Positions 33,460 to 35,781 of a DNA stretch of 64,000 bases are shown here, piece after piece (within the stretch, counting starts at the first letter, position 1; each line of letters begins with the position of its first letter). The DNA lies in NCBI RefSeq assembly GCF_000024185.1, contig NC_013790.1:891501-955500 (forward strand). The letters run 5' to 3'. The notes under the pieces are model-generated. The model did not search any database and was not told the DNA's origin. It worked only from the letters and a program-made list of their open reading frames with translations. This stretch comes from Methanobrevibacter ruminantium M1. GTDB lineage: Archaea; Methanobacteriota; Methanobacteria; Methanobacteriales; Methanobacteriaceae. Position numbers and translations under genes: made by a program.

Positions 33460-34848
33460 ATTAAGCCTCCTTTGAGCTTTAATTAGGATAATTTAAGGCT
33501 AGTCATTCGTAGAATTGTCATCATGTTAATATCTTATTTTAATCATAATAGATTTCTTTTATAAATAATTCTCCTTATTTGAATAATAGGTTAAGCATAA
33601 TTGGTCTAATATTTATTAATTTGACCAAGCGTAAGGTCTTTTTTAAATAATTATATTTATTTGAATTTTAGATCTTATCTCTCATTATTTAATAATGGAT
33701 TTTTTATAAAATACTAGATTTAATCTATTTATAGATTCTAATTATTAATTTTACTCCATATTTTTTTTTAATAGCTTAAAATTAATTATTTTAATTAAGA
33801 TTTAGCATAATAACAAATTTACTACTAGCTTAATTATAATTAATTTTAATTAATGAATAAATTATAATTGATTATAATTTTTTTTAAATTATACTGTAAA
33901 TTTTAATAAGTTAATTGATAAATTTTAATTAAAATGTTGAATAAAACATTTTTAAAATGTAAATTATTAAACTAAGTCTTCTGGATTATTTTTCATGTTT
34001 TTATAGTTCCAATTGTGATTGGAATTAACATAATCAATCCAAAGGGAGTTTAATTTTAATTAAAATTAGATACTGCATAAAAAATCAATAAATAAATAAC
34101 TAATTCATTGAAGTTTATTAGTCATAAGAAAAAAAGATATTTAGTATTTTTATTAAATAAAAATATATATTAAAAATTAAGTTATTTAAACATTACTTAT
34201 AGCTTTTTTGATTAATTAAATATTAAATCGCTTTTTAATTAATTAAAATATTTAATCAATTCTAGTTTCATCTTTTAGATTTTTATAAACTATTTAGCTT
34301 TATTTGGCCTTATAACATTTAAATGGTTTTTAAATAATTTTACGATAAATATTTGAATTATTTTTTTAAAACAGGTAAATTTTATTAGAATAATAGATCT
34401 TTGCTTTGTTTAATTAAATCTTCTTTAATATTTTATTTAATTAAATCATTAATCTATAGATTTCTCTTTTTATTAGAATTATTCCTTTGTTTTCAGTCTA
34501 TAATCTTTTTATCGGCTTTTGAATAATTTTAATCTTAAGAAATCTTTATTTTTACCTTTCTCCTTTAATTTTTAATAATAATGTAATAATTGTGAATAAT
34601 AATTTGTAAATATCATTTTTTAAATATGATTTTAGTATCCACATAATATTATCTTTATCATTGTATATAAACTATTTTATATTTTTTTCATAAGCCTAAT
34701 TTTTCCAGATTTTTATGTCATATAGTTTTATATGGTAAACTGAAACTTTGATTTTTTAATTAAAAAGCGTTAGGAATCAGACAATAATAGAAAAAGTATT
34801 GATGATTATATGATAATTAGAAAAAGTTTTTAAATTTCATTTAAATAA
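33460..34848. other. 1.4-kb extremely AT-rich non-coding region upstream of dnaG
   Basis: I see no gene here on either strand. The dnaG promoter must lie at the left end. The rest is A/T runs with many imperfect AATTAATT/TTAAATT elements, without clear period. No structured RNA stands out until about 34850. It is unusually long for this genome's spacers and could hold decayed sequence. Confidence 0.5.
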
Positions 34849-35030
34849 TAAAAAACAGCATTTGTATATTTTACGATTGATTATGAATCTCTATTCTATT
34901 TTTCAATAGATTAGAGATTAAATCATCGTTCAATATCCTATTGTAAGATTCTCTTACAATATCCCGATGGATATTGAAACCAAAAACAAACTAAGTCGGA
35001 ATTAAAAAATTCATAGTGAATTTTTTTAAT
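34849..35030 (-). ncRNA. Candidate structured small RNA (possible antitoxin/regulator), minus strand
   Basis: There are three structured elements. (a) A nested stem spans 34873-34929: ACGAT/ATCGT, GATT/AATC, AATCTCT/AGAGATT and CTATT/AATAG, with loop GAAA when read on the minus strand. (b) Alternative stems occur in 34929-34978: GGATATTGAA (34969-34978) can pair with TTCAATATCC (34929-34938) or with nearer CAATATCC (34957-34964), and ATTGTAAG/CTTACAAT (34940-34960) competes. (c) The hairpin AAAAAATTCA-TAG-TGAATTTTTT spans 35005-35027. On the minus strand a TATA-like TATATATAATATT (35048-35064) lies upstream and T6 (34849-34854) downstream. TTGTTTTTGGT (34989-34979, minus) can pair with the neighbouring peptide mRNA. 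The GNRA loop favours the minus strand. The exact ends are inferred. Confidence 0.5.
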
Positions 35031-35199
35031 TTCTATTAATGATTATGCAAAAAATATTATATATAGTTTTTCATAAATATAGATTAAGGGATGTGACAAT
35101 TAGAAGCTAAACGGAACTCAAATAACGGGAATTATTGGAAACTAAATACTTCTAATTATGGTTGGTTCCCTTAATCTATGAAGGAGGAAAAGGATGTCT

Positions 35200-35301
35200 T
35201 TATAATAGCTTAGCCAGAGCCATTATAATGAGACAGTAAATACACCCCAAATAAATGAAGTATAAGACTATCCCAATCCAAATTTTCATTTGGATAGACA
35301 T
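35200..35301 (-). CDS. 33-residue single-helix hydrophobic peptide (candidate type I toxin)
   Basis: A tiny ORF starts at ATG 35301-35299 with the ideal Shine-Dalgarno GGAGG (35313-35309) at 7-base spacing, and ends at TAA 35202-35200. The peptide begins MSIQMKIWIGIVLYFIYL and ends MALAKLL: one membrane helix with a Lys near each end, two Cys, Trp and many Tyr. An in-frame ATG at 35331 lacks a ribosome site. Size, hydrophobicity, sequestered start region and overlap with a second frame resemble type I toxins such as Hok or Ldr. I see no homology to any named toxin, and coding is inferred from the Shine-Dalgarno and composition only. Confidence 0.5.
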   Translation of the reverse strand: MSIQMKIWIGIVLYFIYLGCIYCLIIMALAKLL

Positions 35302-35356
35302 AACTTCTCCTCCTGTCTTGTTTTTGGTCATGTGAGACTTTATTCTGAAAAATCAA
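35210..35356 (-). CDS. Overlapping 48-codon frame with strong ribosome site (possible leader ORF)
   Basis: TTG 35356-35354 stands 7 bases after GGAGG (35368-35364, within GGGAGGTGAT). It opens a frame of 48 codons that ends at TAA 35212-35210, fully overlapping the hydrophobic peptide gene in another frame. The product is basic and polar at first (NKVSHDQKQDRRRSY), with no recognised family. An ATG in the same frame lies at 35371, before the ribosome site. It could be a mok-like leader whose translation opens the second start, or the Shine-Dalgarno could serve another purpose. Confidence 0.3.
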   Translation of the reverse strand: MIFQNKVSHDQKQDRRRSYVYPNENLDWDSLILHLFGVYLLSHYNGSG

Positions 35357-35394
35357 AATATCACCTCCCATGTTAGGAGTTACCGTTTGACTAA

Positions 35395-35410
35395 ATGTAT
35401 ATAATTTCTA
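35395..35410 (-). promoter_or_regulatory. TATA-like promoter for the minus-strand peptide transcript
   Basis: On the minus strand AAATTATATACATTTA (35410-35395) stands about 25-30 bases before the presumed start near 35382, which is followed by GGGAGGTGAT. Placement fits an archaeal promoter; AT-rich surroundings make single-site calls weak. Confidence 0.4.
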
Positions 35411-35465
35411 ATATTTATACTTTATTTTCGATATAACGATTTATAAATTCTTATTTTAATCTAAA

Positions 35466-35560
35466 ATTGATTTAAAATTGTTAAATTGATGTGAGAGTGT
35501 GAAATTGATTTAAGATTGTTAAATTGATGTGGGAGTGTGAAATTGATTTGATGATGTGAA
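35466..35560 (+). repeat. 38-bp tandem repeat, 2.5 copies
   Basis: The unit starts ATTGATTTAAAATTGTTAAA and ends GAGAGTGTGAA. Copy 1 is 35466-35503, copy 2 is 35504-35541 with two changes, and a partial third copy follows (ATTGATTTGATGATGTGAA). It lies between the peptide locus and the RraA-like gene. Confidence 0.8.
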
Positions 35561-35781
35561 AGTTGTATGATTTTGAAATATTTATTTTATATCCCTTATT
35601 TTTAAATCAGACTTTATTTAAAGCGTTTTCTAAAATATAAATTCTTGTTTTGAAATATTATTTTTAATTCAATTAGAAAATTTTATTAAATATCTTTTAG
35701 ATAGTTTAAGTATCAAATACTTAATTAATTCAAACAAATATTTTTATTTTTATCGATTATTTTTACTTGGAAGGTGTTATT

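Follow-up and report, generated by a model that had tools for sequence, protein, structure and literature searches.

The locus described here, on the minus strand of a 64,000-nucleotide stretch of the Methanobrevibacter ruminantium M1 genome (the window), very probably encodes an archaeal type I toxin-antitoxin pair whose RNA antitoxin is orthogonal and acts in trans. The evidence is comparative throughout: the anatomy, the conservation, the locking of the translation start, both RNA-RNA contacts, the strand, the promoter-like boxes and the one-sided decay of the module were all computed. The first-pass annotation of this DNA had suggested a possible archaeal type I toxin-like gene, a reading that is strongly supported by the conserved peptide, the covarying lock and an adjacent RNA gene with covarying complementarity. 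The small-RNA unit downstream of the toxin is new and goes beyond that earlier observation. In the open-access literature no archaeal type I toxin-antitoxin system was found.

The putative toxin gene (35200-35301, minus strand) encodes a hydrophobic peptide of 33 residues, MSIQMKIWIGIVLYFIYLGCIYCLIIMALAKLL, read from 35301 to 35200. The Shine-Dalgarno (SD) sequence GGAGG (35313-35309) lies 7 nt 5' of the ATG at 35301, and the SD, start codon and 33-codon frame are all located where they had been placed before. DNA and profile searches of 152 genomes from one archaeal phylum revealed relatives of the peptide at 57 places, in two Methanobrevibacter genera and nowhere else among these 152 genomes. 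The named relatives are Methanobrevibacter metagenome-assembled genomes, several of them from ruminant guts, and many of the compared loci come from such assemblies. The family peptides are 30-33 aa long and largely apolar, as is characteristic of the small (<60 aa) hydrophobic toxins of type I systems. Their consensus is MSIQxKFWIxxxIYxIxxWCxAFxII, with M1 and W8 invariant and K6 and Y14 nearly so in an alignment of 29 rows (W8 is absent from some relatives found later). The toxin frame is under purifying selection, with a dN/dS value of 0.26, while the other two frames show 0.68 and 0.80. The peptide has no match near the cut-off in Pfam and no toxin-family match in NCBIfam, and a Hok-like protein sequence was found with neither of them. 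Of the Rfam 15 covariance models, only a tRNA elsewhere reached the gathering threshold, and nothing credible by E-value was found at the locus. In two copies (L063, G007:C93, and L064, G016:C1:216837) the toxin ATG is replaced by ATA and ATT, respectively, in frame with an upstream start; these copies are possibly inactive, or read as a fusion.

The toxin mRNA is predicted to fold with its translation start buried. The 5' strand of this lock (35297-35315, minus strand) comprises the SD segment GGAGGAGAAG (35304-35313) and the start region AUGUC, and its 3' strand, GACAUCCUUUUCCUCC (35183-35198), follows directly past the stop codon. GGAGGAGAAG pairs with CTTTTCCTCC (35183-35192) over 10 bp, one of them G-U, and AUGUC pairs with GACAU. 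This lock, first proposed for the window only, forms and covaries in 43 of 43 loci, though its sequence varies, as in the second genus, where GGAGGAATCC pairs with GATTTCTCC. Cognate lock strands pair with a mean energy of -17.9 kcal/mol, and swapping the strands weakens this to -14.9 kcal/mol (p = 5e-5 by permutation, or 0.009 within the window's genus; the loci are phylogenetically related, so these values are not exact probabilities). In partition functions, the SD and AUG pair strongly to the post-stop segment in most loci. The hiding of a toxin's translation start by 5'-3' pairing is shared with the hok/sok family, in which (plasmid R1) the start region of the toxin mRNA is locked in this way.

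The fold belongs to the toxin strand. The minus strand of 35080-35382 folds with -103.5 kcal/mol (z = -9.4; 100 shuffled sequences gave no fold of this stability), versus -72.6 kcal/mol (z = -3.0) for the plus strand, and the sense strand is the more stable one in 41 of 43 relatives (mean z of -4.6 versus -2.5). The first-pass annotation had pointed to pairs that are G-U on the minus strand and A-C on the plus strand; summed over stems across the loci, the non-Watson-Crick cells amount to 165 G-U on the toxin strand versus 12 A-C, so that selection on the structure acts in the RNA of the toxin strand. In the second genus, RNAalifold recovers the lock, hairpins inside the coding sequence and a 3' element, with compensatory changes, and for loci of the window's genus the program finds the 3' element. 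The latter (35079-35179, minus strand) consists of a closing stem, AUAGAUUAAGGGA/UCCCUUAAUCUAU, and an inner hairpin (35121-35136) with the loop UCCCG, which is contact site 2 for the small RNA; it shows compensatory changes and toxin-strand wobbles. The region is AT-rich, as would suit chance folding of intergenic DNA; that explanation is refuted by the z-scores, the covariation, the selection on the coding frame and the cognate-specific pairing described below, and its probability is negligible. The search for conservation of peptide and stems, proposed as a check on the original claim, has come out in its favour.

Upstream of the gene, an A-rich BRE-like stretch together with TATAAATA (35412-35419) forms the predicted toxin promoter P1 (35412-35428, minus strand), which stands at a fixed distance in the relatives. 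Imperfect direct repeats (AAATTGATGTGRGAGTGTGAAATTGATTT...) are present at 35465-35565, directly upstream of P1, and similar repeats precede the other two module copies of the genome. The leader contains GGGAGGTGAT (35360-35369, minus strand), which is complementary to the 16S 3' end, sits within a leader hairpin (GGUGAUA..UAUUGCC) and is a candidate ribosome standby or loading site. A second frame overlapping the toxin, compared earlier to mok over hok, does not hold up. A start codon follows the upstream GGAGGTGAT in 19 of 20 window-type loci, but the frames of these starts against that of the toxin are distributed 10/7/2, and 17 of 20 loci of the other genus have no start codon there. Since the start codon is not conserved, GGGAGGTGAT is not simply part of an upstream ORF, and a mok-like overlapping ORF coupled to the toxin, as found in the hok/sok family, was dropped as a candidate (neither frame nor start is conserved, and it is absent in most second-genus loci). 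In one locus (L072; G044:C6, about 1130-1400) the toxin copy is directly preceded by the end of a TnpB-like protein, present as its C-terminal part, which takes the place of the toxin leader and the antitoxin target site.

The second unit of the module is a small RNA gene (34847-35036, minus strand), a putative antitoxin, which a covariance model built on this RNA only (R1) detects at 89 places in 54 of 139 genomes (its E-values are rough). Every locus has the same order along the toxin strand: first a TATA box, then hairpin A, the linker and hairpin B, and last a stretch rich in T. In the window, the TATA box CTATATATAATATT of the putative promoter P2 (35053-35066) is followed by hairpin A (35000-35031), the specificity linker UUUGUUUUUGGUU (34978-34990), hairpin B (34931-34976) with the bulge CGGGA (about 34962-34966) that forms the second contact, and hairpin C (34886-34919), a probable 3'-end structure, all on the minus strand. 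In 35 of 37 loci the TTTAWATA-like octamer of P2 matches at 8/8 positions; from the octamer centre to hairpin A the distance is usually 27 nt. A TATA box at such a distance places the transcription start of an archaeal promoter there; because the spacing fits this geometry, the 5' end of the small RNA would lie near 35036. The 3' end is uncertain, with a T-run at 34847-34853. The outer stem of hairpin B covaries (AU19/GC19, UA25/UG11/CG3), and T6 runs follow this hairpin in 35 of 45 relatives versus A6 in 13. The promoter-like boxes and the strand bias of the wobbles would fit transcription of the small RNA. An adjacent gene for a non-coding RNA complementary to the toxin mRNA, as found here, is a feature of type I systems.

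An antisense promoter firing on the plus strand from the TATA box at 35053-35066 was considered and dropped, as the wobbles and the conserved hairpins assign the downstream RNA to the strand of the toxin. A hok/sok-type layout, in which a leader ORF resembles mok and an antisense RNA overlaps from the plus strand, is very improbable. The overlapping upstream frame of the window-type loci and the partly palindromic TATA sequence would suit it, but that frame is not conserved, the 165 G-U versus 12 A-C place the structure on the toxin strand, and the covarying partner RNA is encoded on the same strand, downstream, no cis antisense RNA overlapping the toxin mRNA having been found at the locus. 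The likeness to hok-type systems noted at the outset is therefore partial: the locked start stands, and the layout differs, the antitoxin being a separate same-strand downstream gene, not an overlapping antisense one.

The small RNA is complementary to the toxin mRNA at two places. Target site 1, GACCAAAAACAAG (35317-35329, minus strand), lies directly 5' of the SD and is complementary to the linker at 34978-34990. The linker comprises 12-22 nt, hypervariable between loci and complementary to its target within each of them; in the second copy of the genome the paired sequences are AATTGAATAAAACAATAAG/CTTATTGTTTTATTCAATT. When the best complementarity between the mRNA and the downstream RNA was sought with no site assumed, it was almost always found between the linker and the segment lying 10 to 30 nt upstream of the toxin start. 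The mean energy of cognate duplexes is -20.0 kcal/mol versus -8.3 kcal/mol for swapped ones; the summed energy is -705 versus -305 +/- 20 after permutation (z about -20), and the cognate partner ranks 0-2 of 43 in 41 loci. An exception to the linker match is L072 (TnpB insertion in the leader), and a mismatch in L058 is explained by a matching small RNA one copy further on. The three copies of the genome are mutually specific, with cognate energies of -16.6, -23.2 and -17.8 versus -4.7 to -13.3 between copies.

A scan of mRNA against small-RNA segments gave two strong sites only, the linker and the bulge. In the case of the second contact, the bulge of hairpin B pairs at 5-11 bp in 42 of 42 loci checked; its partner is the 3' element's apical loop in window-type loci and a leader-hairpin loop in the other genus, and compensatory changes are observed, e.g. 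GTGATACA/TGTATCAC and TTTAGGTAGG/TCTACCTAAG. In the window itself, both contacts rank among the weaker (13 bp and about -16 kcal/mol at site 1, 5 bp at site 2). A further candidate, pairing of the mRNA 5' end (AAACTCT) with the small-RNA 5' end (AGAGTTT), occurs in many loci and is absent in the window; it was set aside as the scan favoured the linker and the bulge.

All the parts lie on the same strand, no clear terminator separates the toxin 3' element from the small-RNA promoter, and the linker-target helix would nest outside the lock. The two units could thus be read as one long structured transcript, in which the linker-target duplex is an intramolecular closing helix (an extended hok-like 5'-3' lock) and there is no separate antitoxin. 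This is improbable in view of the near-invariant TATA box 27 nt before hairpin A, of the many small-RNA units without a toxin, including tandem ones, and of a second contact that joins a loop to a bulge. Furthermore, complementarity to the linker sufficed to locate toxins upstream of the small RNA that had escaped the first profiles, and their distance from it was 289-297 nt in every case. In genome G095, whose two toxin copies have a common target, the toxin of copy 1 is unmatched by the adjacent small RNA, but both toxins have a 19-bp match to the small RNA that follows copy 2, in favour of a trans-acting RNA. The array itself (L164; G095:C31:23923-25474) carries two identical toxins and three antitoxin-like RNAs in tandem, of which only the last matches both.

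The two units are closely linked. The small-RNA unit follows the toxin on the same strand, 151-199 nt downstream, at 55 of the 57 places; of the remaining places, one is at a contig end and one has a truncated toxin, and no intact toxin lacks the unit. Conversely, 34 of the 89 small-RNA units have no peptide-profile toxin upstream. Among these, a truncated toxin adjoins one and a divergent candidate another, leaving about 32 orphans, some at contig ends. Several small RNAs adjoin toxins broken by a nonsense codon or premature stop, a frameshift, a deletion or a TnpB insertion. Such one-sided loss, with the toxin gone and the small RNA kept, is the asymmetry expected of toxin-antitoxin pairs. 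In some genomes the orphan RNAs (L143, L148, L046, L177) have the linker of toxin-linked RNAs found elsewhere (TTTGTATAAGTAAATT), as expected of anti-addiction copies. The M. ruminantium M1 genome contains a fourth antitoxin-like RNA, without a toxin (L139; G000:C1:1752692-1752827), whose linker is a diverged copy of that of the neighbouring module.

In respect to its genomic setting, the module is a discrete insertion. The order of dnaG and the RraA-like gene is conserved, and relatives, one of them with a 98% identical DnaG, lack about 960 bp between these genes; the extra DNA (34687-35649, boundaries approximate) contains the whole module. Modules sit among housekeeping-type genes (neighbours recognised by eye), and no relatives were confirmed in two scans of viral contigs; a viral origin was rejected on these grounds. 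This setting, the purifying selection on the peptide, and the fact that its toxicity is a prediction would also be in keeping with a small-RNA-regulated small membrane protein that is beneficial, e.g. a stress or membrane-tuning peptide, with the same RNA anatomy and repression. Such a role is unlikely, although it is the strongest of the alternatives: the decay is one-sided, with toxins broken or lost and small RNAs persisting, not the reverse, and the patchy, multi-copy and site-variable occurrence, together with RNAs specific to each copy, is better accounted for by an addiction or selfish module.

For the toxin-antitoxin module, the following mechanism is proposed; transcription of both RNAs, translation, repression, RNA lifetimes and toxicity are all predicted in it from comparative data. 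The first unit would give an mRNA for a single-span membrane peptide of 30-33 residues. The nascent mRNA would fold with its SD and AUG paired to the post-stop sequence, so that translation would occur only if ribosomes enter from the leader, where the conserved GGAGGTGAT near the mRNA 5' end, part of a hairpin, may serve as a standby site. The second unit, about 165 nt downstream and with its own TATA box, would produce a small RNA composed of hairpin A, a single-stranded linker, the bulged hairpin B, a 3' hairpin and a U-tract. This RNA would dock through the bulge-loop contact, and its linker would pair with the 12-22 nt that immediately precede the toxin SD, keeping ribosomes off the leader and SD; binding may also mark the mRNA for decay. 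Upon loss of the short-lived small RNA, the peptide would be made and the membrane damaged.

These loci probably represent the first archaeal family of type I toxin-antitoxin systems, distinct in its design: a co-directional downstream RNA, a freely varying linker of 12-22 nt plus a bulge-loop contact, mutually orthogonal paralogous modules and toxin-less RNA copies that persist as possible anti-addiction genes. A 2025 paper names Proteobacteria, Firmicutes and Tenericutes as the only sources of type I systems up to then, and describes the first cyanobacterial example (PMC12390103); the loci of an antisense RNA study in Halobacterium were of type II (PMC6523106). With an archaeal family in rumen methanogens, RNA-antitoxin biology would reach the second prokaryotic domain, and the family would supply a natural set of dozens of orthogonal small RNA-mRNA pairs. 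Searches for overlapping antisense RNAs would miss the module because of its co-directional layout and two-site pairing. A methanoarchaeal small RNA that acts on mRNAs through two distinct domains, sRNA162 of Methanosarcina mazei, is reported to target a transcription-factor mRNA and is not a toxin system (PMC3510493).

In its logic the module is closest to the 'unconventional' type I loci with short complementarity and divergent sRNA genes, TisB/IstR-1, ShoB/OhsC and ZorO/OrzO (PMC3919570, PMC4147584), and not to the hok/sok layout. In hok/sok, a leader peptide controls the toxin (PMC4147584), mok is required and Sok overlaps as an antisense RNA, whereas here neither an overlapping RNA nor a conserved leader ORF was found, and the peptide shows no protein relation to that system. 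TimP/TimR of enterobacteria has a full-length structured toxin mRNA with a sequestered ribosome-binding site under antitoxin sRNA control (PMC11228461); compared by description, it resembles the module in its structured mRNA with a hidden ribosome-binding site and its antitoxin sRNA (putative here), and differs in being bacterial, with pseudoknot-driven translation. ZorO/OrzO and ZorP/OrzP of E. coli O157:H7 (29-aa hydrophobic toxin, 18-19 nt complementarity; PMC3919570) share with the module a hydrophobic toxin, duplicated loci and copy-specific antitoxins, but their sRNA gene is divergent and specificity comes from a few nucleotides, whereas here the whole linker differs between copies. TisB/IstR-1 of Escherichia coli combines a 29-aa hydrophobic toxin, a sequestered SD, a standby site and a separate antitoxin RNA with 21 nt of complementarity to the toxin 5' UTR (PMC4147584), all of which have counterparts here (the standby site as a candidate). 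Its sRNA gene is divergent, however, while that of the module is downstream and co-directional, and, unlike in TisB/IstR-1, the target lies right next to the SD, the two RNAs have another covarying contact, and the SD is locked by the post-stop sequence.
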